Below, piece by piece: positions 49,872 through 61,073 of a stretch of 64,000 nt of DNA (position 1 is the stretch's first letter; each line of letters opens with the position of its first letter). Origin of the DNA: an uncultured Sulfitobacter sp. (GTDB taxonomy: Bacteria; Pseudomonadota; Alphaproteobacteria; Rhodobacterales; Rhodobacteraceae); the NCBI RefSeq assembly GCF_947500075.1, contig NZ_CANMQS010000004.1:1-64000 (forward strand), given 5' to 3'. A program made the translations under genes and the position numbers. The notes beneath the pieces are model-generated. The model worked only from the letters and a program-made list of their open reading frames with translations, was not told where the DNA came from and made no database searches.

Positions 49872-50130
49872 GCTCACTTGGGGTGGACTGCTAGTACTTC
49901 GTGCCAATTCTCTAAACGCACCTTTTCGCAAAATCCTGTAGTTCAGTCGGTGTAGAATGCACCAACGACTGATAATACTTATTCCACAAAGCAGCCCTTC
50001 GAACAATGTGCAGCATTCAACACTTTGGGCTCCAAGCCGACCTCAGAGGCAGCGCAGCAATCCTGTGGTATGTTGCCTTGTCAACGTCGGGTTGTCGTTG
50101 TGGAGGGCATGGCGGATCGGAGGATCAGTC

Positions 50131-50763
50131 ATGGAAACACCAAACTTACCAGCCATTCGCGCACTTCGCCCAGCATGGAACAAAGGCCGTATCGTCGGCC
50201 AGAAGCGCCCTCTGAAACCGAAACACGTCTGGGCAATCCGCGTTCGACTTGAATTGGCCGAGAACCATCGCGACCTCGCGCTGTTCAACATGGCAGTCGA
50301 CAGCAAGCTGCGCGGTTGCGATCTGGTCAAGATGAAGGTCGTAGATGTGATGGCTTCCGGTCAGATCAAGGAACGAGCATCGGTGCTGCAAAGCAAGACA
50401 CAGAAACCTGTGAGATTCGAAATATCCGAAGGTACACGCGCCTCGGTCGAAGAGTGGATGGAAGATGAGCTCATGGTCGGCTCGGAGTACCTTTGGCCGG
50501 GCCGCTTTCACGAACGCCTGCACATCTCGACACGCCAGTATGCGCGGATGGTCCGTGAGTGGGTCACGTCGATCGGTCTTGAGGCGAGCGCATATGGCAC
50601 GCATTCGATGCGGCGCACAAAGGTGACCCAGATCTACAAGAAGACAGGCAACCTGCGTGCTGTTCAGCTTCTCGTCGGACACACGAAGATGGACAGCACG
50701 GTGCGATACCTTGGCGTTGAACTTGAAGATGCACTGGCGATCGCTGAGGCCATCGAAATCTGA
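50131..50763 (+). CDS. tyrosine-type site-specific recombinase
   Basis: A 210-residue integrase-like protein. Catalytic residues are in place: R61 in DSKLRGCDL, K in the KTQKPV strand near 89, H158 and R161 in THSMRRTK, H184 in LVGHTKMDST and the nucleophile Y193 in TVRYLGV. The N-terminal core-binding domain is short, as in the small integrases found in alphaproteobacterial islands. Its start follows CGGAGGA. It lies at the left border of the HEPN/MazG/peptidase region and could have brought it in as a nested insertion. A terminator-like stem lies just past the stop. Confidence 0.9.
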   Translation: METPNLPAIRALRPAWNKGRIVGQKRPLKPKHVWAIRVRLELAENHRDLALFNMAVDSKLRGCDLVKMKVVDVMASGQIKERASVLQSKTQKPVRFEISEGTRASVEEWMEDELMVGSEYLWPGRFHERLHISTRQYARMVREWVTSIGLEASAYGTHSMRRTKVTQIYKKTGNLRAVQLLVGHTKMDSTVRYLGVELEDALAIAEAIEI

Positions 50764-50792: not shown

Positions 50793-50976
50793 TTTGCGGA
50801 CCTTGAACACATTGTAGGGATGCTGCAGTTGCTGCCCGCGTAGCGGCCATTCGCTGCGATGGCAAAATTCGAGGCTGCATGAACTCACGGTCCGCGGACC
50901 TGCCAAATGCATATCTTGATACTCGAGCGTTATCTTTGCTCTATCCTGAGTGCTCTATCTGGAATTTGGAGTAAAC

Positions 50977-51489
50977 ATGCCGGACCCTGCCCGATGGCTA
51001 AATGCCAAGATCCCAGGATGGCGAAACCTTGAAGTCAAGGAAAAGAAGGCGATACGCGACTTCGCTGTTTTGTGGTCGTTCTTCGAGTTGAATTCGACTT
51101 GGCGGTATGGTCGGCCGAATGCCACGCCAGAAAATATCATTCGAGCTGTGAACGATTTGGAACAAGTTCCGACTAACAATCATTCTGAAACTGCGAGGGC
51201 GTACTTCGCAGAGAGGTACCTAATCGGCAATGGGTACACCGAGCACTGGTATCATCTTCGTGTAAGGGCCGAGTTTGTCGAGACGGTGCGACATGGATTG
51301 GCAGGTGAAAACCGGACGAACCGCGATACACTTCTCGCCCTGCTACTAGTAGCGAACCGGCTGCGAAACAACTTTTTGCATGGTGAGAAAGCTAGTTACA
51401 ATTTTGCGGACCAATATGACAACTTCACCAAAGCGAACTCTGTCCTAATCTATGCGCTAGAGCTGTGGCCAAACGCCCAAGAGGGCTAA
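50977..51489 (+). CDS. HEPN-like protein
   Basis: A 170-residue, mostly helical protein. Near the C-terminus RLRNNFLHGEK contains the Rx4H motif (R130, H135) followed by G, characteristic of HEPN-type RNases in toxin-antitoxin and abortive-infection systems. No antitoxin gene is obvious beside it. It stands alone on the plus strand between the recombinase and the MazG gene, with no strong ribosome-binding site. The HEPN assignment rests on this motif and on helix content. If correct it would be an RNA-cleaving defence effector. Confidence 0.6.
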   Translation: MPDPARWLNAKIPGWRNLEVKEKKAIRDFAVLWSFFELNSTWRYGRPNATPENIIRAVNDLEQVPTNNHSETARAYFAERYLIGNGYTEHWYHLRVRAEFVETVRHGLAGENRTNRDTLLALLLVANRLRNNFLHGEKASYNFADQYDNFTKANSVLIYALELWPNAQEG

Positions 51490-51715
51490 TGAAGCTTGGG
51501 GTTGAGCAGATAGCGCAGCCAAATTTACGCAGGCAAGTTTTTCGAAACAGCTCTCACGCGCAACACCATCTGTACGCAACCTCGAATAGTAAGAAGCGAC
51601 CGGCAGAAAGGTGGCAATCAGGCGGGTCCATTAAGAATCGAATTCGCTCATTGAGTTGTTGACGGGTCGTCAAGCACATGATTCAATTAAACAATATTTT
51701 ACAGGACCTAAAAAA

Positions 51716-52942
51716 ATGCATTCACCGAGCGTCTTCAATCGATTGTGGCCTTCCGTCCAACTCCCCGAGGAAATCGGGGATGCGTCGAGGATCGGGATGA
51801 ACGCTTATCAAAGGGTCACAGAGCTGACAGATAAATTCGGAAGTACCGAGATCGATCTGCCAATCCTGGGACTTTTTGGTGAAGTTGGCGGGCTTCTCAG
51901 CGCCTTGAAGAAGAAGCAACGTGATCAGTCTTACGAGCAGAGCTATGACGAAGCGGTTGTCGAGGAGCTGGGCGACGTTCTGTGGTACTTCACTCGGATT
52001 GCAGCACGGGCAAATCTTGATCTCAGTGTAATAGCGCAGCGTGCCTTCCGTGACATGTCGGATTGGGACGAGGTGATGGCCGACGAAAACGGTATCTTCG
52101 GTGACATTCAGCACATCCACAAAGAGCCGATCTCGAATGAGGAGTTTTCGGGACGGGTAGTGCAGCTAGCAGGACGTGTCGGCGATTTGATGAACGATCT
52201 CCATTCCGGTGCATTCTCATCAAATCGCGACAAACTGGCTGGGCACCTTGTCGAGATTTTCCGCGCGATAATCGAAGCCGCGGATGCAGCCGAAGTAGAA
52301 CTTGAAGACGCGGCCCGCCAGAACCTCTACAAGATTTTCAGCCGTTGGCCTCATCAGAAGGAATACCCTGCCCTCTTCGACGAAGATGACGATCCCGCCG
52401 AGCAGTTGCCGAGACGTCTCGAAATCGAGATTTTCGAGCGCGAGCGGGGCGGCAACGTTCTCGTGTTCCAGCGATGCAATGGATTGAACATCGGAGACCC
52501 GCTGACCGACAATAAAGAAGACGCTGATGACTACCGATTCCACGATGTCTTCCACTACGCCTACGCTGCGATTCTGGGCTGGTCGCCAGTGATGCGCGCG
52601 CTATTCAAGCTGAAACGAAAATCAGACCCCGTGAAAGACGAAAACCAGGATGGTGCCCGCGCGAATCTCGTGGAGGAAGGAATTTCAACCTGGATATTCA
52701 ACCGGGCCATGAAGCAGGATTTCTTTGCCGGCGTAGAGCAAGGAAAGCTCAGTTATGACATGCTGAAAACCGTCCATCAATTCTCCTCCGGCTATGAGGC
52801 GGAACGATGCCCATTGTGGCTATGGGAGGAAGCAATCCTCGAAGGTTTCAGGTGCTTCCGGTATCTCAAGCAGCATCGGCAGGGCAGGTTGATCCTCGAC
52901 CTGAAAAAGCGAAGCATCGACATTGAGGCTTTAAAATTATGA
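51716..52942 (+). CDS. double MazG-like protein with conserved C-terminal domain
   Basis: A 408-residue protein. Residues ~30-120 form a MazG-like all-alpha NTP pyrophosphohydrolase unit; the EELGDVLWYFTRIAA motif is intact but the first metal-binding helix (GLFGEVGGLLSALKK) has lost the second acidic position. Residues ~140-210 look like a second copy (GRVGDLMNDL, LVEIFRAIIEAADAAEVELED). The C-terminal ~170 residues have a distinctive motif, YRFHDVFHYAYAAILGW ... EEGISTWIFNRA, with histidines and acidic residues suggesting another metal site. The gene overlaps a UDG-like gene by 4 bases. A role in hydrolysing non-canonical nucleotides is inferred. Confidence 0.75.
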   Translation: MHSPSVFNRLWPSVQLPEEIGDASRIGMNAYQRVTELTDKFGSTEIDLPILGLFGEVGGLLSALKKKQRDQSYEQSYDEAVVEELGDVLWYFTRIAARANLDLSVIAQRAFRDMSDWDEVMADENGIFGDIQHIHKEPISNEEFSGRVVQLAGRVGDLMNDLHSGAFSSNRDKLAGHLVEIFRAIIEAADAAEVELEDAARQNLYKIFSRWPHQKEYPALFDEDDDPAEQLPRRLEIEIFERERGGNVLVFQRCNGLNIGDPLTDNKEDADDYRFHDVFHYAYAAILGWSPVMRALFKLKRKSDPVKDENQDGARANLVEEGISTWIFNRAMKQDFFAGVEQGKLSYDMLKTVHQFSSGYEAERCPLWLWEEAILEGFRCFRYLKQHRQGRLILDLKKRSIDIEALKL

Positions 52943-53613
52943 GCGCGAGTGAATTCATCTGTGAACTCCAGTCCTTTTCGGCAGAGCGGGTCTTCAATCC
53001 ATATCGCGATGTGTGCCCAGATTGGGACCGCGCTGACGCCGCGGCCACGAGGTCTGGTAACCTCAAAAACCTTCTTGAAGCCGTACATGCCTCCGGCGTG
53101 GACACAATCTGGGTTGCTAGGGACCTGGGTTATCGCGGAGGACGCCGAACGGGTGTGCCACTGACCGATGAGGTTCATTTGAACACGGTCGAACGTCTGT
53201 TTGGCACTGGATCGCTCGTTCGCGCCACCCAAGGCGAAATCGTTGCCGAGCGTACCGCTGCCGTGATTTGGAAACTCCTGGGTACTATTGGACGGCCGGT
53301 GATGCTTTGGAACGTCTTTCCGTTTCATCCACATGAAGAAGCAAAACCGATGACTAACAGATGCCATACAGCAAAAGAGCGCGAACTGACTTTGCCATTC
53401 TTGTGGTATCTGATCGAGTTTCTGAAGCCGAAGCAGCTCGTAGCTATCGGACGCGACGCACAGGCAGCACTGGAAGATTCACCAATACCGGTGATTAATG
53501 TCCGGCACCCGAGCTATGGCGGACAACGCGAATTCAACGAAACACTGGCGGACTTTTACAAGGTCGACGTGCCATTGGCAGCAAAGCAAGAAACTATGAA
53601 GTTCTTTGCTTAA
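52939..53613 (+). CDS. uracil-DNA glycosylase-superfamily protein
   Basis: A 224-residue protein with the UDG-superfamily layout. VARDLGYRGGRRTGVPLTDE (residues ~59-78) is motif A with an unusual arginine in place of the common water-activating acidic/Asn residue. WNVFPFHPHE near 123 and VRHPSYGG near 190 correspond to the pocket and DNA-intercalation motifs. It overlaps the MazG-type gene, so the two act as a pair. Such a pair could recognise modified or uracil-bearing DNA of an invader while controlling the nucleotide pool. The gene ends in a 4-bp overlap with the convergent ThyA-like gene. Confidence 0.75.
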   Translation: MSASEFICELQSFSAERVFNPYRDVCPDWDRADAAATRSGNLKNLLEAVHASGVDTIWVARDLGYRGGRRTGVPLTDEVHLNTVERLFGTGSLVRATQGEIVAERTAAVIWKLLGTIGRPVMLWNVFPFHPHEEAKPMTNRCHTAKERELTLPFLWYLIEFLKPKQLVAIGRDAQAALEDSPIPVINVRHPSYGGQREFNETLADFYKVDVPLAAKQETMKFFA

Positions 53614-54383
53614 GCGGCCTCCGCCAGATCAACTGCTACCGCACATTCGTCGATCAGATTTTTTATGTCTCCGACGTTTGCTTTGCATTGCTGAGTCGTT
53701 GTTGCATGTGTCGATAGAATGGTGAGTGAACCCGGCTGCACACCGGCTTCCTTGGATACGAAAGAGAGCAACTGAGCAAGTCCCATGAGATTTCCTAGCA
53801 GCTTCTCGATGTAATAGTGATTGCGGTAGGTCACAGTCAGCATCAGTTTCTTCTCTGCTTTGCCGGCAAGCTTGAAACTGAGATGGCTCATGCATTGCCC
53901 CCCGTACGGGGAGTCGCTGAGGTCCCTGAAGGGATCAAAGATGGCGATCTCGAACTTATTCTTCGCAGTGATGCTGGGGTCGCTGATCCGGCGAATGACG
54001 TCTTGGAGAGGATTGATAACTCTGCCCTCGGCCGAGATGACCTTGGTCATTCGCTCAAAATAGTAACCTGTCCAGTTGCAGTCTTTCCGAATTTTTGGAA
54101 GCAAGACATCATGGAAGGTTTCATAGAGCCCTTCGATTCCGTGTTTTTTATAGAGTGCGTTTGGGAAGATCGTGTTAGCGACGGTCATCAGCGGCTTGGA
54201 TCGAGGTCTCAGAAACCCGTCGACGCGCTGGATGATCGCAAGACTGGTCGCATCGCAGATTACCGGTTCCTTAAGGTCCACAATGACGTTGTAGGCTTCG
54301 TGCTGTGGCTGCGCGAAGACTTGCTGTGTTGCCTCGAGCCAGGCGCGCGCAGCATCAGGCTGCGGCTTTGTTGCCAGATACAT
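53610..54383 (-). CDS. thymidylate synthase-like protein
   Basis: A 257-residue protein whose second half follows thymidylate synthase: GGQCMSHLSFKL (C164 in the position of the catalytic cysteine), then LTVTYRNHYYIEKLLGNLMGLAQLLSFVSKEAGVQPG, matching the synthase YQRS...N...LL...G helix, and LSTHA where the synthase has GDTHLY. The first half (residues 30-120) is divergent. It may act on dUMP/dCMP-like nucleotides, or be a nucleotide sensor without catalysis. It is the last gene of the peptidase operon (29-nt overlap with the C1 peptidase). Confidence 0.65.
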   Translation of the reverse strand: MYLATKPQPDAARAWLEATQQVFAQPQHEAYNVIVDLKEPVICDATSLAIIQRVDGFLRPRSKPLMTVANTIFPNALYKKHGIEGLYETFHDVLLPKIRKDCNWTGYYFERMTKVISAEGRVINPLQDVIRRISDPSITAKNKFEIAIFDPFRDLSDSPYGGQCMSHLSFKLAGKAEKKLMLTVTYRNHYYIEKLLGNLMGLAQLLSFVSKEAGVQPGSLTILSTHATTTQQCKANVGDIKNLIDECAVAVDLAEAA

Positions 54384-55044
54384 GTGATCCCTCCTTCAAT
54401 ACGGCAATGTCATACAGACTGGCGTCGAAGAGATCTTCGGCGATCCAGGCATAGCCATCGTCGCCCCAGCCATTGCCCCAACTGTTCCGAATAAGAAAAC
54501 AGCGCCCTGACGAAGCCGTGCCGTAGCCGACCGCAACCACTGCGTGTCGCATATTGATGTTTGGCGTCGATGCGGGCGATGTCTCGATAATTCTTCCCCT
54601 CTGCGCCGCGAAAAACGAGTCGCAAAGAAAAATCAAGGAAATAACCGGCAATCCGGCATTCAGATACTGGACGACGTCGTTTGCGAGTTGACCGCACCGA
54701 TCGCCATTGCGCTTGTAGATATCACCGAAGTCGGTCGGTGGGGTCCAGGATTTCATAACCTGATCCGGCTTTTTCTGGATGTAGGGCCAGTCGGCTTCGA
54801 TTGGCTGACCTTCGGACTTGAGCGCCGCCAATACATCGGGAACAGTGGCACCGGAGGTGGCATCCCGCCCCCCAATCTTCTGGGCATGGTAGTAAAGGAA
54901 TTCGCAAGAAAGTTCAGTGTCTGGATCAAGCAAAGCGCCATGCGCGTCACTTGCTGCGAAGGCGAGGCAAGTCGGTCGGCTGCCCTGATCGCGGATCGGT
55001 GCAAACTGGCCGCGCAAGTCGACTGTCGGGATTACCAGAGTCAT
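54355..55044 (-). CDS. C1 papain-like cysteine peptidase
   Basis: A 229-residue papain-fold peptidase with a complete active site: oxyanion glutamine Q20 and nucleophile C26 in RDQGSRPTCLAF, H167 in MRHAVVAVGYG and N187 in RNSWGNGWGDDGY. It has no signal peptide and no propeptide, so it would be cytoplasmic and active as made unless inhibited. The gene directly upstream encodes a chagasin-like inhibitor domain, a known inhibitor class of C1 peptidases. I infer a toxin-like protease held in check by that partner. Its substrate might be an element-encoded or host protein, or its ACP-like neighbour. Confidence 0.9.
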   Translation of the reverse strand: MTLVIPTVDLRGQFAPIRDQGSRPTCLAFAASDAHGALLDPDTELSCEFLYYHAQKIGGRDATSGATVPDVLAALKSEGQPIEADWPYIQKKPDQVMKSWTPPTDFGDIYKRNGDRCGQLANDVVQYLNAGLPVISLIFLCDSFFAAQRGRIIETSPASTPNINMRHAVVAVGYGTASSGRCFLIRNSWGNGWGDDGYAWIAEDLFDASLYDIAVLKEGSHVSGNKAAA

Positions 55045-56051
55045 GCGGCCAGCAACGCCTTTTTCTTGTCCGCTCTCGACAAACCTTCGAGTTCGGGTCC
55101 GGATAGATCGAAATCAAAGGAGAGTTTGCTTAGGGGCTCTTGAGGTTGCCAGGGTCTTTGTTCGGTGAGATCGACCCGTCCGTAGTTGCTGTCTTCGAGA
55201 TGGGCAGTGATGTTGCGGAACACAGGATTGCCGACGCCCTGTTCATCCAGCGCTTCTCTTGTGTCCTGAACGATAAGAAACCCGCTCTCCACCAGCTGGT
55301 CTAAGTTCCACACATATCCTCCGGAGCTATGCTCTTTGAGACGAATGACGAACAAGTCGTTCCGGCTGCCGGATATGCTTGTGCCCTGATCTGCCTCCGT
55401 TAAGAGCCAGGTGTCGCCGAAGTAATTCTCGGGGACGAAATCTCCCAGCAAACGCTGCTTGCGCGTCCGCACTTCAGCCGCCAGCAACTCTTTGGCAACA
55501 GACGGATCGATTACATTGTATCGTTGCAGTGTGTAGCAGGTTGCTGCGTAGCTTGTGCCCAGCCGCAGCGCGAGTTGGTACACCTTGTCAGGGTCCTGCA
55601 AGTCAACCGCCGTCCAGCCGCGCTGGCGGCAGTGTTGCATTACAAGCCACCTTGGCATCAAGAAAGCGGCCGCAAACGTGTTTGCTTCGAGTTCCTGAAG
55701 ATCCGGCAGACCTCTGTTTTGAAATGGTGAACGCCGCAGTACCTGCTCATCATCGAGACTCGGTTTATGCTCCAGATAGAAATGCCCCAGCTCGTGCGCC
55801 GCGGTGAACCGCTGAATGCTTAAGGGCCGTTGAGTCGTTATCAGTATACCCGGCGCAGGTTCGCGCAAATAGGCACCCAAGAGACCATTGAGGGGGCGGA
55901 GCAAGAGCGTAATGTCGAGTTGGCTGATCGTGTCGAAGACATCGATACTGCCAAGTTGAGCCACCATATCGGTCTGGCTGCCCAGTTGCTCATGCAGCCT
56001 GGCAGCCTTCGCGACACCATTGCGGATTGCTTCCGAAGTCGAACTTGCCAT
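55041..56051 (-). CDS. ImmA/IrrE metallopeptidase fused to a chagasin-like inhibitor domain
   Basis: A 336-residue fusion. Residues ~40-190 are an ImmA/IrrE zinc protease (HELGH at 86-90, third ligand E122 in LQELEANTFAAAFLMP). Residues ~225-320 match the chagasin (I42) family in its three inhibitory loops in order: SSGGYVW at 242-248, GVGN at 272-275 and RPW at 299-301. Chagasins block C1 papain-like peptidases, and the very next gene (4-nt overlap) encodes one. The fusion ties a repressor-cleaving type protease to an inhibitor and looks like a control node. I have not seen this fusion described. Confidence 0.85.
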   Translation of the reverse strand: MASSTSEAIRNGVAKAARLHEQLGSQTDMVAQLGSIDVFDTISQLDITLLLRPLNGLLGAYLREPAPGILITTQRPLSIQRFTAAHELGHFYLEHKPSLDDEQVLRRSPFQNRGLPDLQELEANTFAAAFLMPRWLVMQHCRQRGWTAVDLQDPDKVYQLALRLGTSYAATCYTLQRYNVIDPSVAKELLAAEVRTRKQRLLGDFVPENYFGDTWLLTEADQGTSISGSRNDLFVIRLKEHSSGGYVWNLDQLVESGFLIVQDTREALDEQGVGNPVFRNITAHLEDSNYGRVDLTEQRPWQPQEPLSKLSFDFDLSGPELEGLSRADKKKALLAA

Positions 56052-56062
56052 TTTGGATGTCT

Positions 56063-56458
56063 CTAATTCGACCTGTTTTGAAGATAATCCGCGAAGCGCG
56101 TGAGTTCTTCGCGATCGTTGCCGGATAGGGCCGCTGCCTTTCGAGCAAGATGTGCGACATCAGCAGGTAGCGCGGACGTGGCAGCATCTTCACCTGTGAA
56201 ATGCGTGATCGGTTGTTTATAGAGCTGTGCAAGCTTCTTGAGTTCTAGCGCTTCGATTTTTCGGTTGCCCTTCTCGATCTCGACGAGCGCTGTCCGTGTG
56301 ACAGTGAGATATTCCGCGACCTCCTCTTGCGTGAAGCCAAGATACTTCCGCGCATCCTGCAGACGTTGGCCGATCAGAATTCTCTCCTGTTTGTCGGTTG
56401 CCGATTTTGTCTGAACTTCGCTCATGCTTTCGCCTTTCCTTTTTGATTTTTCTGCCAA
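56063..56458 (-). CDS. XRE-family regulator
   Basis: A 131-residue protein with an XRE helix-turn-helix at residues ~28-82 (RLQDARKYLGFTQEEVAEYLTVTRTALVEIEKGNRKIEALELKKLAQLY). A C-terminal tail follows that may dimerise (ALSGNDREELTRFADYLQ). It lies 11 bases before the ImmA-chagasin gene, so it is the likely repressor and protease substrate. It overlaps the ACP-like gene by 37 bases. An alternative start at an internal ATG (KSKRKGESM) would shorten it by about 11 residues. Confidence 0.88.
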   Translation of the reverse strand: MAEKSKRKGESMSEVQTKSATDKQERILIGQRLQDARKYLGFTQEEVAEYLTVTRTALVEIEKGNRKIEALELKKLAQLYKQPITHFTGEDAATSALPADVAHLARKAAALSGNDREELTRFADYLQNRSN

Positions 56459-56769
56459 ACCTTCTCGATCTTAGGCATCAGATTCTCAACCGCCTGATCG
56501 ACAGAAGCGTACCCTCCTTCCTTCACAAGTTTTTGCGGCAACTCACTGCCAACTAATGGTTCCACCGCGCACAGGATTTCAACGACAATCAGGGAGTCGA
56601 TGGATACTGACTGCTTTGAAACGTCCGAGAGCGACTCCGGCAATTCTACACCGTAAAGTGTCGCTTGATCCTGAACGTTCGATATCAACGCATCTCGCAA
56701 CGCCGCTTCGATGGCAGCTGCCTGAAACGTATCGGTCGATATTTGTTCAGTTTGTGTAGTCAGCGCCAC
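56422..56769 (-). CDS. acyl-carrier-protein-like small protein
   Basis: A 115-residue protein. Residues ~45-105 have the pattern of an acyl carrier domain: SVSIDSLIVVEILCAVEPLVG holds a DSL motif (S59, the phosphopantetheine-attachment position in ACPs), then ELPQKLV and a closing helix. Length and spacing fit an ACP, but the flanks and lysine-rich tail do not. It is the first gene of the peptidase operon. If modified, it could be a carrier or a target of the peptidase; this is inference. Promoter not identified. Confidence 0.55.
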   Translation of the reverse strand: MALTTQTEQISTDTFQAAAIEAALRDALISNVQDQATLYGVELPESLSDVSKQSVSIDSLIVVEILCAVEPLVGSELPQKLVKEGGYASVDQAVENLMPKIEKVWQKNQKGKAKA

Positions 56770-57028
56770 TAGTCGAACCTTTCCAACATGGAGCTAACAT
56801 AATGTTGGAATTCCCAACAGTCAAGCATCCCGTCTCTGTGCCACGGTCTGATACCTTGGCCTTACTCCGAATAGCGTCGAGAAGCTCACGCCAAATAACT
56901 CAAATGATTTGTCAGAAACATGTGGCGCATGAACCGCCATTTCGCTTGAACACGCCGGAAGTCAAAGTCCGCTTTCCAGAGGCTATTTGGACCACTTAGC
57001 GCGCGCAGCGAACTTCCGCTTCCCGCCC

Positions 57029-58562
57029 ATTCTGTTGAAAAACAACGTGTTGCGAGCGCAGAAATTAGCGGCATGAACAGTGCGCGGGCGCCTTTCTGAC
57101 TAGGCTTTGCGTGGTTGCTGCGGTGCAGGAAAGATCTTGGCCAGTTTCCGGAGATTCTGGGCGGTATCTGCGAGGAGGAATTCGTCGCTTGCGCCGCATG
57201 GACCGCGTAATCGAAGGCGCCCGAGGCCGAGGATGCGTTTGAGGTGGGCGAAGAGCATCTCGACCTTCTTGCGGAGCTTGGACGAGACTTTGTACTGACG
57301 TGTTTTTCTGATGGCGCGAGCGACGTCCCTGGCATCTTCATGTTCTTCGCGGGTGATCTTGCGTGCGTCTGCTTTCGGGCAGCACTTCATCTTTGAGGGG
57401 CACGCCTGACAGGTGTGTTTGAGAGCTTGGTACTTGGCAACACCTTTACCGGTCGGGCCACGATTCGGATCGGAATAGTTCCGGCGGAACTGCTTGAGCG
57501 CTTCACCTTCGGGACAGATGTATTGATTGTTCTCGGCGTCCCATTCGAAGTCAGCGCGGGACCATGTGCCGTCCGTCCGGCCAGCCTTGTCGATGACCGG
57601 GATGTGCGGTGCGATCTTGCGCTTCACCAGCCAGTCCAGCATCGGGCCGGAGCCGTAGGCGGTGTCCGCAATCAGACGTTCCGGGTGCAGGTCGAACTTG
57701 TCTTTAACCCGCGTTAGCATGGTCTTCGTCGATCCCACCTCGGCCTGTCGGATCGATCTGGTCGCTTCGACATCGACGATTACACCGTGATCCGTGTCGA
57801 TCAGATAGTTGTCGGAATAGCTAAAGAATGCAGGGCCTTTGCGCGCAGCAGTCCATTGGCTGGCAGGGTCGGAAAAGGATGTGAACTTCGGCTGTACTTC
57901 ACTCGCAGCACCAAACGCGGCCTCATCCAGCGTGTCGAGATACTCGCGAACAGCCCGTGGTGCAGTGCCCACATCAACGCGCGCCGGGTCCCATTCTTCC
58001 TTTGGAGCAGAGTACTGCCGGTTCGCGTCGGCTTCGATCAAGCTGGCATCAACAGCCATACGCTGTCCGCTCACCAAACCTTCGGTGATGCATCTCGCAA
58101 CGGTTGTCTCGAACAGATGGCGCAATAGCTCACTATCGCGGAAACGGCCATGCCTGTTCTTTGAGAAGGTGGAATGGTCAGGGATGCGTTCGCTCAGATC
58201 AAGGCGGCAAAACCAGCGATACGCCAGGTTCAGATGCACCTCTTCACACAGACGTCGCTCAGAACGGATGCCAAAGCAGTATCCCACCAAAAGCATGCGG
58301 ATCAGTAGCTCTGGATCGACCGATGGACGACCAGTATGGCTGTAGAAATCGGCCAGATACGGGCGGATGTCGCTCAGATCGACGAACCGATCAATCGACC
58401 GCAGCAGGTGATCTTGAGGGACATGGTCTTCCAGCGAGAACTCGTAAAACAGCGCCGCTTGTGCTTCCTGCTTCGGTCCCAACATCGCCGCATCCCCCCA
58501 CATCCTAGCGAGAATTGAATCAGCGACAGCACCTCAAATCAACAAGAGTTTTTCAACGGAAT
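57029..58562 (-). mobile_element. IS1182-type insertion sequence
   Basis: A ~1.53-kb element containing one transposase gene and bounded by imperfect inverted repeats ATTCTGTTGAAAAAC (57029-57043) and GTTTTTCAACGGAAT (58548-58562), with further matches inside (TGTTG, GAG). No clear target-site duplication could be read, so the last few bases of each end are uncertain. It separates the peptidase operon from the integration module. Confidence 0.85.
57100..58485 (-). CDS. IS1182-family transposase
   Basis: A 461-residue DDE transposase. The N-terminal helical DNA-binding region (FYEFSLEDHVPQDHLLRSIDRFVDL) and RPSVDPELLIRMLLVGYCFGIRSERRLCEEV match IS1182. Catalytic acidic residues are in MAVDASLIEADAN, LIADTAYGS and the C-terminal E of KVEMLFAHLKRILGL. 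A cysteine-rich insert (CQACPSKMKCC) is also typical. The start at 58485 (MLGPKQEAQ) is preferred over the in-frame ATG 18 bases earlier. The gene appears intact, so the copy may still move. Confidence 0.92.
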   Translation of the reverse strand: MLGPKQEAQAALFYEFSLEDHVPQDHLLRSIDRFVDLSDIRPYLADFYSHTGRPSVDPELLIRMLLVGYCFGIRSERRLCEEVHLNLAYRWFCRLDLSERIPDHSTFSKNRHGRFRDSELLRHLFETTVARCITEGLVSGQRMAVDASLIEADANRQYSAPKEEWDPARVDVGTAPRAVREYLDTLDEAAFGAASEVQPKFTSFSDPASQWTAARKGPAFFSYSDNYLIDTDHGVIVDVEATRSIRQAEVGSTKTMLTRVKDKFDLHPERLIADTAYGSGPMLDWLVKRKIAPHIPVIDKAGRTDGTWSRADFEWDAENNQYICPEGEALKQFRRNYSDPNRGPTGKGVAKYQALKHTCQACPSKMKCCPKADARKITREEHEDARDVARAIRKTRQYKVSSKLRKKVEMLFAHLKRILGLGRLRLRGPCGASDEFLLADTAQNLRKLAKIFPAPQQPRKA

Positions 58563-59036: not shown

Positions 59037-59436
59037 ACCAGACCGGGCGCGGCCCGCGACGCTAGCACGATGGGAGGCGGTCTTTGGATCGCCTCCGCCG
59101 CTCTATTTGTCTGTGCCGTTCATGCAAAAGGCGCTGGCGTATGAGGCCCAGTGCGAGGCGATGGGCGGGTTAACAGCCAAGACACGGCGCTCCTTACGGC
59201 AAATCGCAGCAGGAGAAGACGTTACCAATGCGGCGCCGCCCAAGCTGAGCACGGGGGCGCATCTTGTTCGGGAATGGAATGGGCGCACCTATCAAGTGCA
59301 GGTCACGGATGCGGGCTTTGAGATGGATGGCAAAACTTGGCGCTCGCTCACCGCCATCGCCAAACACATCACCGGGGCAACCTGGTCTGGTCCTCGCTTC
59401 TTTGGACTGACAGCAGGAGCAGGGGGCGGGGCATGA
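59026..59436 (+). CDS. DUF2924 domain protein
   Basis: A 136-residue protein with the DUF2924 motif set: ARWEAVFGSPPPLYLSVPFM near the N-terminus, LSTGAHLVREWNGRTYQVQV in the middle and ITGATWSGPRFFGL at the end, the last segment being a DNA-recognition-like helix-loop. It is co-translated with DUF3489 (11-nt overlap) and with the recombinase (ATGA overlap). Families of this kind accompany the recombinase in alphaproteobacterial elements, and a role as recombinase co-factor is inferred. Confidence 0.9.
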   Translation: MRREPDRARPATLARWEAVFGSPPPLYLSVPFMQKALAYEAQCEAMGGLTAKTRRSLRQIAAGEDVTNAAPPKLSTGAHLVREWNGRTYQVQVTDAGFEMDGKTWRSLTAIAKHITGATWSGPRFFGLTAGAGGGA

Positions 59437-61073
59437 AGAAGATCCGCTGCGCCATTTACACCCGCAAGTCCTCGGAAGATGGCCTTGAGCAAGAGTTCAA
59501 CTCGTTGGATGCGCAAAGGGAAGCCTGTGCTGCCTACATCTCCAGTCAGAAGCATGAAGGCTGGGTGCTGTTGCCGCAACATTACGGTGATGGTGGGTTG
59601 TCGGGCGGCTCGCTGGAGCGGCCTGCGCTGAAGCATCTACTGCAGGACATCGCAGACGGGCTCGTTGACCAGATCGTCGTCTACAAGATCGACCGGCTTA
59701 CGCGCTCCCTCGCGGACTTCTCCAAGATTGTGGACACACTGGATGCTGCCGAAGCGTCGTTCGTTTCCGTAACCCAATCGTTCAATACGGCCACCAGCAT
59801 GGGGCGCTTGACGCTGAACATGCTCCTTTCATTTGCTCAGTTTGAACGCGAAGTGACAGCAGAACGCATCCGAGACAAGATCGCGGCATCCAAGCGGAAG
59901 GGGCTGTGGATGGGCGGTAGTGTGCCGCTGGGATATGATCCGGATGGGCGGACACTGACGATCAACGGAGTTGAAGAAAAGACGATCAGAACGCTTTACG
60001 ATCTCTACGAACAATACGGGACGGTCCGCGAAGTAAAGGCGCAGGCTGATGTGCTTGGTCTGAGGAGCCGCCAGCGTACAGCCTCAGATGGCACCATGAC
60101 CGGTTTCAACCCCTTCGACCGGGGCCACATCCATCACATCCTGACCAATCCGATCTACGCCGGGCGCATTCGCCATCGGGAGAAGGTTTTTGACGGTCAA
60201 CACCCGGCGATCATCGACCCCGAGCGCTGGGATTGCATCCAACGCCAACTACAGGACGGCGCAGCAAAGGGCAGGACGCGCAAGACCGCTAAGCAACGAT
60301 CCCTGCTCTGTGGCAAGGTCTTTGATGAGACAGGGGATCGCCTGACGCCATCACATACCAAGACCCGTAAGGGTGCGCGGTTGCGATACTACGTCTCGCA
60401 TAGGTTGATCAAACACAGCGGTGAGGCCAGTAAAGATGGCTGGCGCTTGCCGGGGGAGGAACTGGAACAGAAAGTTGCGCATGTCTTGCAGCAAGGTATC
60501 AACAGCCCCTCGTTCATTGGTAGGGTTGCGCGAAATGCCACGGCCAGCGAAATCGCGACAGCCAAATCCAAGGCTCAAACGGTCTGCGCTAGGAAAGCCA
60601 TCGTTCCATCGCTGGATCTCATCGAGCGCATCGATCTTGGCCTTGGCCAGCTCAGCATTACCCTCGATACAGAAAGGCTGGGTGCACTGCTTGAGCTAGA
60701 TATCAATGACACTCCGCAGGATGATCTTGCCATCACAGCACCATTCCAACTGAGGAAACGCGGCGTCGAGACCAAACTGATCCTTGCTGATCAACCAGGC
60801 GACCGGGATGAGACCTTGATCAAGAACATCGCCAAGGCGCATGTCTGGTATGAGCGGATCAAGGCAGGCGAAACCTTCTCAGATATCGCCGCCACCGAGA
60901 CGACATCAAAGCGCCGCATCCAGCAGATGATCGACCTAGCATTCTTGGCACCCGACATCTTGCGCGACGTCATTGAAGGCAAACAACCAATCGGACTGAG
61001 CTCCGACTGGTGCCTGCGCCATGAGATTCCGTCCGACTGGTCAGAACAGCGCCAGCTGACCGCGGCGCTCTAA
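59433..61073 (+). CDS. large serine recombinase (integrase)
   Basis: A 546-residue recombinase. Residues 1-150 are the resolvase catalytic domain (IRCAIYTRKSSEDGLEQ with the nucleophile serine in YTRKSS; VYKIDRLTRSLADF; AQFEREVTAERIRDKI). Residues ~165-290 are the Recombinase DNA-binding domain and the zinc-ribbon-like C-terminal part follows. It is the likely integrase of the 60.7-kb element and points at the tRNA-Gln. The ATG at 59433 overlaps the DUF2924 stop. Its last 93 codons are duplicated at the left end of the element. Confidence 0.95.
   Translation: MKKIRCAIYTRKSSEDGLEQEFNSLDAQREACAAYISSQKHEGWVLLPQHYGDGGLSGGSLERPALKHLLQDIADGLVDQIVVYKIDRLTRSLADFSKIVDTLDAAEASFVSVTQSFNTATSMGRLTLNMLLSFAQFEREVTAERIRDKIAASKRKGLWMGGSVPLGYDPDGRTLTINGVEEKTIRTLYDLYEQYGTVREVKAQADVLGLRSRQRTASDGTMTGFNPFDRGHIHHILTNPIYAGRIRHREKVFDGQHPAIIDPERWDCIQRQLQDGAAKGRTRKTAKQRSLLCGKVFDETGDRLTPSHTKTRKGARLRYYVSHRLIKHSGEASKDGWRLPGEELEQKVAHVLQQGINSPSFIGRVARNATASEIATAKSKAQTVCARKAIVPSLDLIERIDLGLGQLSITLDTERLGALLELDINDTPQDDLAITAPFQLRKRGVETKLILADQPGDRDETLIKNIAKAHVWYERIKAGETFSDIAATETTSKRRIQQMIDLAFLAPDILRDVIEGKQPIGLSSDWCLRHEIPSDWSEQRQLTAAL

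Follow-up and report, generated by a model that had tools for sequence, protein, structure and literature searches.

Repressors of the XRE family stand beside metalloproteases of the ImmA type in several described systems, including CapH/CapP of the cyclic oligonucleotide-based antiphage signaling system (CBASS), IrrE/DdrO and ImmA/ImmR, the last of which governs transfer or excision in ICEBs1, and chagasin is a known inhibitor of C1 (papain-like) peptidases. Validated defense systems with thymidylate synthase (TS) and 5-hydroxymethyl-deoxyuridine (5-hmdU) kinase domains are reported in the DefensePredictor paper, in which MazG, MazG-C and uracil-DNA glycosylase (UDG) are also predicted to be defensive (PMC13092281). 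In this study, we describe a locus that combines parts of these kinds. It lies in a stretch of 64,000 nucleotides from an uncultured Sulfitobacter sp. (assembly GCF_947500075.1, contig NZ_CANMQS010000004.1, positions 1 to 64,000; hereafter the window) and comprises seven genes in two convergent operons, one encoding an acyl carrier protein (ACP)-like protein, an XRE protein, a fusion of an ImmA metalloprotease to a chagasin domain, a C1 peptidase and a TS-like protein, and the other, facing it, a MazG protein and a UDG-superfamily protein. We know of no described system in which the operon's regulatory protease carries a chagasin domain that gates a peptidase. The earlier note on this DNA had supposed that no system with this set was described, and none turned up in our literature searches, although the set may have been mentioned in Iyer 2013 NAR or Burroughs 2015 NAR. 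The cassette shares its kinds of nucleotide domains with the DefensePredictor systems and differs from them in its other parts, since the main text of that paper does not use the words protease, cysteine protease or acyl carrier and speaks of a peptidase only for an M15 family (PMC13092281), a comparison made by text. The cassette is likely an undescribed, switchable antiviral defense system, and its overall purpose is most likely phage defense, as cargo of conjugative elements and plasmids.

The fusion protein matches both M78 (E = 4.3e-13) and I42/chagasin (E = 8.6e-7; 29.6 bits, cut-off 27.2) in Pfam. In a search of PDB sequences, its N-terminal half matches an IrrE orthologue (E = 2.7e-6) and residues 216-313 match amoebiasin-2 (E = 1.3e-6). 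The inhibitory loops GGYxW and RPW of chagasin are conserved, with G245, W248, R299 and W301 kept in 62/62 sequences (one plasmid copy, L085, is without RPW), so that profile and loops together place the domain in the I42 family. The ImmA half keeps HELGH (86-90) and E120/E122 in all or all but one sequence, which gives the HExxH protease beside an XRE repressor that is expected of an ImmA/IrrE protein with its partner. The adjacent gene encodes a protein with a Peptidase_C1 domain (Pfam E = 2.9e-15) and a papain-like active site in which Q20 and C26 are kept in 62/62 sequences, H167 in 61/61 and N187 in 60/61. Since this protein begins 19 residues before Q20, there is no room for a propeptide. 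The earlier note had described five minus-strand open reading frames (ORFs), among them a C1 peptidase with a complete active site and no propeptide and an ImmA protease fused to a domain with chagasin loops; all five ORFs are intact and where it placed them, and both descriptions hold by sequence. Whereas chagasin/amoebiasin-type inhibitors share the I42 profile, the amoebiasin-2 similarity and the loops, the domain here is joined to a metalloprotease, and the gene for its presumed target follows in the same bacterial operon. A single database protein (P0078) joins XRE, M78 and I42 in one chain. Covariation was measured as partial correlations in 36 modules differing by more than 10%, with 28 pairs tested; the best partner of C1 was I42 (r = 0.27; 11 of 2000 shuffles as high), and its correlation with the M78 half was only 0.08. 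The I42 domain likely inhibits the C1 peptidase of this locus, and we consider it quite probable that the two are a functional pair.

Relatives were collected by a GTDB scan with an alignment of the fusion, and the best 80 of 155 confirmed relatives, which hold 61 distinct fusion proteins, were analyzed. The ACP, XRE, fusion and C1 genes are present in 80/80 of these loci, the TS-like gene in 78, UDG in 74 and MazG in 72, with UDG and MazG facing the operon; some loci are cut by contig ends and a few carry insertions (L073, L075, L080). Within each family (54 to 62 sequences), no active-site residue is missing from more than one sequence. The largest family common to the other neighbors occurs in 12/61 loci, so the seven genes appear to travel as a cassette. 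The five genes that had been proposed as a unit are thus kept together in relatives, and the peptidase stands beside the fusion in every one of them, but that unit was incomplete, as UDG and MazG also belong to it. Among proteins in the database, 1,863 of the 7,994 scored are related to the fusion at E <= 0.001, some via the M78 half alone. The five-gene core also occurs on a plasmid of a haloarchaeon, Haloarcula marina, where the C1, ImmA, chagasin and carrier residues are kept along with the Cys, Arg and Asn of the TS-like protein.

Table 1. Position and strand of the cassette genes, domains and putative regulatory sequences in the window (aa, amino acids; nt, nucleotides).
Feature	Position	Strand	Remarks
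ACP-like carrier protein	56422..56769	-	115 aa; invariant D58-S59, the likely phosphopantetheine site
XRE repressor-like protein	56063..56458	-	131 aa counted from TTG
ImmA/IrrE (M78) metalloprotease and chagasin (I42) fusion	55041..56051	-	336 aa
M78 domain within fusion	about 55922-55527		
I42 domain within fusion	about 55364-55110		
C1 (papain-like) peptidase	54355..55044	-	229 aa; Q20/C26/H167/N187; without propeptide
TS-like protein	53610..54383	-	257 aa; C164, R187, N198
UDG-superfamily protein	52939..53613	+	224 aa; convergent with the ACP-to-TS operon
MazG and MazG_C protein	51656..52942	+	up to 428 aa
Promoter-like sequence	56796..56824	-	TTGACT (56824-56819), 17-nt spacer, TATGTT (56801-56796)
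Palindrome TGTTGGGAATTCCAACA	56819-56803		inside the promoter-like spacer; likely XRE operator

The genes of the ACP-to-TS operon are closely packed. The C1 gene starts within the final codons of the fusion gene by an ATGA overlap, the TS-like gene starts inside the C1 gene, and an alternative start of the XRE gene (ATG at 56425) would likewise overlap the stop codon of the ACP gene (ATGA). The first 38 or so residues of the MazG ORF are not conserved, and its true start may be later. The C1 gene is a single copy in the host genome. The cassette is flanked in the window by a tyrosine-type integrase (Pfam) at 49957-50763, a transposase-like ORF (by eye) at 57100-58503 and a serine recombinase (Pfam) at 59337-61073. 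An ORF of 179 aa at 50950-51489 has an RNNFLHG stretch and is HEPN-like by eye, with no match in Pfam or PADLOC. This ORF, which the earlier note had counted among the associated genes, and the integrase were rejected as parts of the cassette, with relatives of either in 0/80 genome loci.

Copies were also found outside the genome relatives, namely 12 plasmid loci with C1 (L082-L093, including that of Haloarcula marina), seven plasmid loci without it (L183-L189; three from Streptomyces, two from cyanobacteria and two from Rhizobiaceae) and one C1-less locus from IMG/VR (L094); L190, an XRE-ImmA pair without the other genes, was excluded from all counts. The C1-less class has the order ACP-XRE-ImmA-TS, with MazG and a helical domain of the 5-hmdU-DNA-kinase type (PF18723) in 8/8. 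When the 61 distinct genome relatives, these 20 plasmid or IMG/VR loci and the window are taken together, C1 occurs with I42 in 74/82 loci, 8/82 have neither, and none has only one of the two, the decayed C1 of L050 being counted as present (an apparent C1-TS fusion in that copy was rejected as decay). Since they are jointly present or absent, peptidase and inhibitor appear to be one linked add-on. The query that retrieved the 61 genome loci itself included I42, so that in these loci C1 alone was free to vary; the eight C1-less loci were retrieved with ImmA and TS queries, represent about four lineages and do not count as eight independent cases. The linkage that had been proposed for I42 and C1 is thus borne out, but their place at the heart of the system is not, as the C1-less class retains the ACP, XRE, ImmA and TS-like genes.

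The remaining enzymes point to modified-uracil chemistry, and enzymes of uracil or thymidine metabolism (dCTP deaminase, dTMP kinase, the 5-hmdU-kinase-type domain) recur beside copies, which favors the defense mechanism proposed below. The AlphaFold model of the TS-like protein (pLDDT 90) has as its best Foldseek matches thymidylate synthase (E = 1.1e-10) and the CMP hydroxymethylase MilA, and the predicted TS fold carries the aligned catalytic Cys as C164 (59/59 sequences), with R187 and N198 kept in all or all but one. At the sequence level the family profile reaches TS in PDB weakly (E = 0.35), the profile A2 gave chance matches only, and the haloarchaeal protein had no match. The QRSxDxxLGxPFN motif of thymidylate synthases includes the folate-binding D and G. 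In the weak alignment (E = 0.35), the dUMP-side Arg and Asn match, but the folate-side residues of this motif, the D and G included, are replaced in the TS-like family, which also stands apart from TS and MilA by an identity of about 13%. The UDG-superfamily protein scores 28.6 bits with Pfam UDG (cut-off 24.3) and conserves the stretches GYRGGRRTG and RHPSYGGQ; the single sequence gave chance matches only against PDB. The MazG protein matches MazG_C (E = 2.5e-78) and MazG (E = 1.2e-5), and a homology of MazG_C to HMUDK_hel was rejected (hhalign probability 0.1). UDG occurs in 66/82 loci and the 5-hmdU-DNA-kinase-type domain in 10, with both in 0 and neither in 6; four of these six loci run into a contig end, and in the other two (L005, L050) the TS-like gene is cut short. 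The mutual replacement of UDG and the kinase-type domain suggests that both act on modified uracil in DNA, and the presence of such a base becomes a direct and testable prediction.

Control of the ACP-to-TS operon is likely exerted by the XRE protein. This protein has helix-turn-helix domains in Pfam; its best PADLOC model is RmrA (E = 1.7e-16), with capH at E = 5.5e-11, and the M78 protein matches capP (E = 2.9e-18). The pair thus resembles CapH/CapP in having an XRE repressor beside an ImmA-type metalloprotease with an intact HExxH. It differs in that the XRE protein scores higher with RmrA than with CapH, in that the ImmA protein bears a chagasin domain in C1-bearing copies, and in that a carrier protein, C1 and a TS-like enzyme are encoded in the operon as well. 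No CD-NTase or Cap effector was found among the PADLOC hits of eight window proteins, which returned no named system, or among the recurrent neighbors. A palindrome of the TGTCGG-N5-CCGACA type precedes the ACP gene in 44/61 distinct relatives (59 with enough upstream sequence), occurs nowhere else in the 1,087,496 bases of these relatives and is the likely operator. A looser pattern has three matches in the window with 0.33 expected, both patterns having been drawn up after the sequences were inspected. No shared operator was seen by eye in the listed sequences upstream of MazG, and the palindrome pattern occurs only before the ACP gene. In 22/61 relatives, a small conserved protein that looks by eye like a ribbon-helix-helix protein precedes MazG; it is also present in the plasmid copy L090 (14294-14491) and absent from the window.

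The anatomy of the cassette is firm. From it we infer an inducible phage defense, together with what each protein does, what sets the system off, how the peptidase is released, what is attacked and what the system is for, and we offer this mechanism tentatively. The XRE protein would repress the ACP-to-TS operon until a trigger such as infection or DNA damage, upon which the ImmA domain would cut the repressor. The chagasin domain fused to ImmA would keep the papain-like peptidase inactive until the same trigger. Once the system is on, the TS-fold enzyme would modify position C5 of dUMP or of a related pyrimidine nucleotide. The nucleotide pool would be supplied or cleaned by MazG, and DNA containing the altered (or plain) uracil would be the substrate of the UDG-family protein. 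The targets of the freed peptidase might be host or phage proteins or, within the cassette, the TS-like enzyme or the carrier protein. If true, a chagasin domain fused to the operon's own regulatory protease would be restraining a cysteine peptidase inside bacterial or archaeal cells. A more elaborate two-layer immune switch is conceivable, though we give it little chance: the carrier protein, bearing phosphopantetheine, would hand a group to a folate-independent TS-fold enzyme marking dUMP at C5, the marked nucleotide would be built into phage DNA during replication, a dedicated glycosylase (C1-bearing class) or base kinase (C1-less class) would attack it there, and in the C1-bearing class the caged peptidase would add a proteolytic kill, the ImmA fusion both opening the operon and holding the executioner.

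Several observations weigh against the inducible defense mechanism. The existence of a class without C1 and I42 means that the peptidase is not essential to the core. In the covariation set, the correlation of I42 with XRE (0.37) exceeds that with C1 (0.27), and the M78 half correlates with ACP (0.28), neither of which is what a simple leash on C1 predicts. With the folate motif missing, the TS-like family may not make 5-hydroxymethyl-dUMP. The UDG assignment is modest, being just over the cut-off in Pfam and reaching a family-4 UDG by profile at E = 0.012. The number of promoter-like matches in the region is what chance alone would give (3 found, 3.0 expected), and the counts of defense-type neighbors given below were made without a control.

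On the defense reading, the locus would join a carrier protein and a TS-fold enzyme with uracil-DNA enzymes on mobile DNA. The same parts could also serve self-marking, in which a modified pyrimidine in the DNA of the element itself is made or policed by the TS-like protein and MazG together with either the kinase domain or UDG, while the peptidase pair only limits the pathway. The TS fold and the kinase-type domain of 10/82 loci would suit such a role, as would the dTMP kinase beside copies L082 and L094, the dCTP deaminase beside L084, L085, L088 and L187, and a carrier protein accompanied in some copies by a transferase gene. We nevertheless regard self-marking as unlikely, since tight control by a repressor suits a response that is switched on more than a mark that is made all the time, since the neighbors include no recurrent polymerase or DNA-transferring enzyme, and since the TS-like, fusion and UDG proteins had no match in 50,697 phage records. 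On this last result and the IMG/VR scans described below, a phage origin of the cassette was also rejected.

An addiction module is a second alternative, with C1 as the toxin, chagasin as the antitoxin and XRE as the autoregulator, keeping plasmids or conjugative elements in their hosts with the nucleotide enzymes as passengers. As in type II toxin-antitoxin systems, the inhibitor gene precedes the enzyme gene and overlaps it in the window, where the fusion ORF ends in ATGA as it does (last four bases) in 29/61 relatives, and an operator-like palindrome is present; the plasmid setting of copies also fits. Such systems, however, are stand-alone two-gene units, and C1 and I42 are never found as one: XRE and ACP accompany them in 80/80 genome loci and TS-like in 78/80, and these genes persist where C1 is missing, making addiction a quite improbable explanation.

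The carrier protein raises a third possibility. The ACP family profile matches acyl carrier proteins in PDB (best E = 4.3e-4), and D58-S59, kept in 62/62 sequences, lies where a carrier profile has its DS site; L187 and L188 read NS. The window protein itself has no Pfam match, and its AlphaFold model is mediocre (pLDDT 72), with Foldseek reaching carrier proteins only at E about 1. PP-binding in Pfam is above cut-off in 3/4 C1-less relatives scanned. A phosphopantetheinyl transferase lies nearby in 7/20 plasmid or IMG/VR loci (L082, L085, L087, L088, L089, L187, L188), and none was matched in the 80 genome loci. With such transferase genes, a gene order from ACP through C1 to TS, a TS-like gene starting inside C1, and partial correlations of 0.20 for C1-TS and 0.17 for C1-ACP, the C1-fold protein could be an acyl- or amide-transferring or thioester-cutting enzyme working with the carrier and the TS-like protein, regulated by I42. 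Its full papain tetrad and its strict pairing with a known C1-inhibitor fold make this very doubtful.

The mobile setting that had been proposed for the cassette is supported by its copies on plasmids and in conjugative elements. The fusion matches 29 plasmid records, 14 over at least 80% of its length, and 19/29 are predicted conjugative; in the Rhizorhabdus plasmid p1 (L090) the cassette has mobilization genes on one side and type IV secretion genes on the other. Identity among the six loci of one set (L022 group) is at least 99.98% across 21,008 bases, and among the eleven of another (L029 group) it is 99.8-99.98% across 17-21 kb; between the two sets it is about 96%. These near-identical stretches (L022-L027, and L029-L041 without L031 and L039) span several Sphingomonadales genera, which would reflect either a conjugative element that has spread recently or else shared contamination. 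Control of transfer or excision by XRE and ImmA, as by ImmR/ImmA in ICEBs1, would fit the XRE-ImmA pair, the stretches shared among genera and the copy beside type IV secretion genes, but it is highly improbable given neighbors that vary by element and copies in a haloarchaeon and on plasmids predicted to be non-mobilizable.

Phage defense as cargo of such elements can also be viewed against viral sequences and the surrounding genes. In IMG/VR, no relatives of the fusion were found; scans with the TS-like and UDG alignments gave one and eight loci, respectively, and among the matches listed for a C1 scan (80 loci) none had fusion, TS-like, UDG or MazG genes. Defense-type neighbors of plasmid copies include Shedu (L088), an AbiEii-type gene (L090) and caspase-like genes (L085, L087, L091, L092). 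Among the 111 nearest flanking proteins of the 61 relatives, PADLOC assigned SoFic to three and Septu PtuA and PtuB to two each, among the matches listed (25 of 71 families), while Pfam gave metallophosphatase (8), integrase (4), thymidylate kinase (4) and conjugation families (3 each). On two rhizobial plasmids, a caspase-family gene and a 293-aa gene of unassigned function lie directly upstream of the operon (L091:1317-4117, L092:1299-4108).

A metallophosphatase of 700-780 aa adjoins the cassette on either side in 9/61 relatives and in L089 (e.g., L013:6886-9210, L089:10484-12667), and its second half is TS-like, below the Pfam cut-off in the two proteins scanned. Just upstream of one C1-less copy lie a second gene annotated as thymidylate synthase and a dCTP deaminase (L187:1662-4146). 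The MazG-UDG pair recurs in other operons in IMG/VR contigs (L095:6824-9700, L097:1619-4007, L098:5771-8663), beside Nmad2 as identified by Pfam in L095 and L098 and by eye in L097. The contig of L095 looks P4-satellite-like by eye, and L098 also carries a ThsB-type TIR protein; these contigs possibly hold a second defense operon that shares the MazG-UDG pair.

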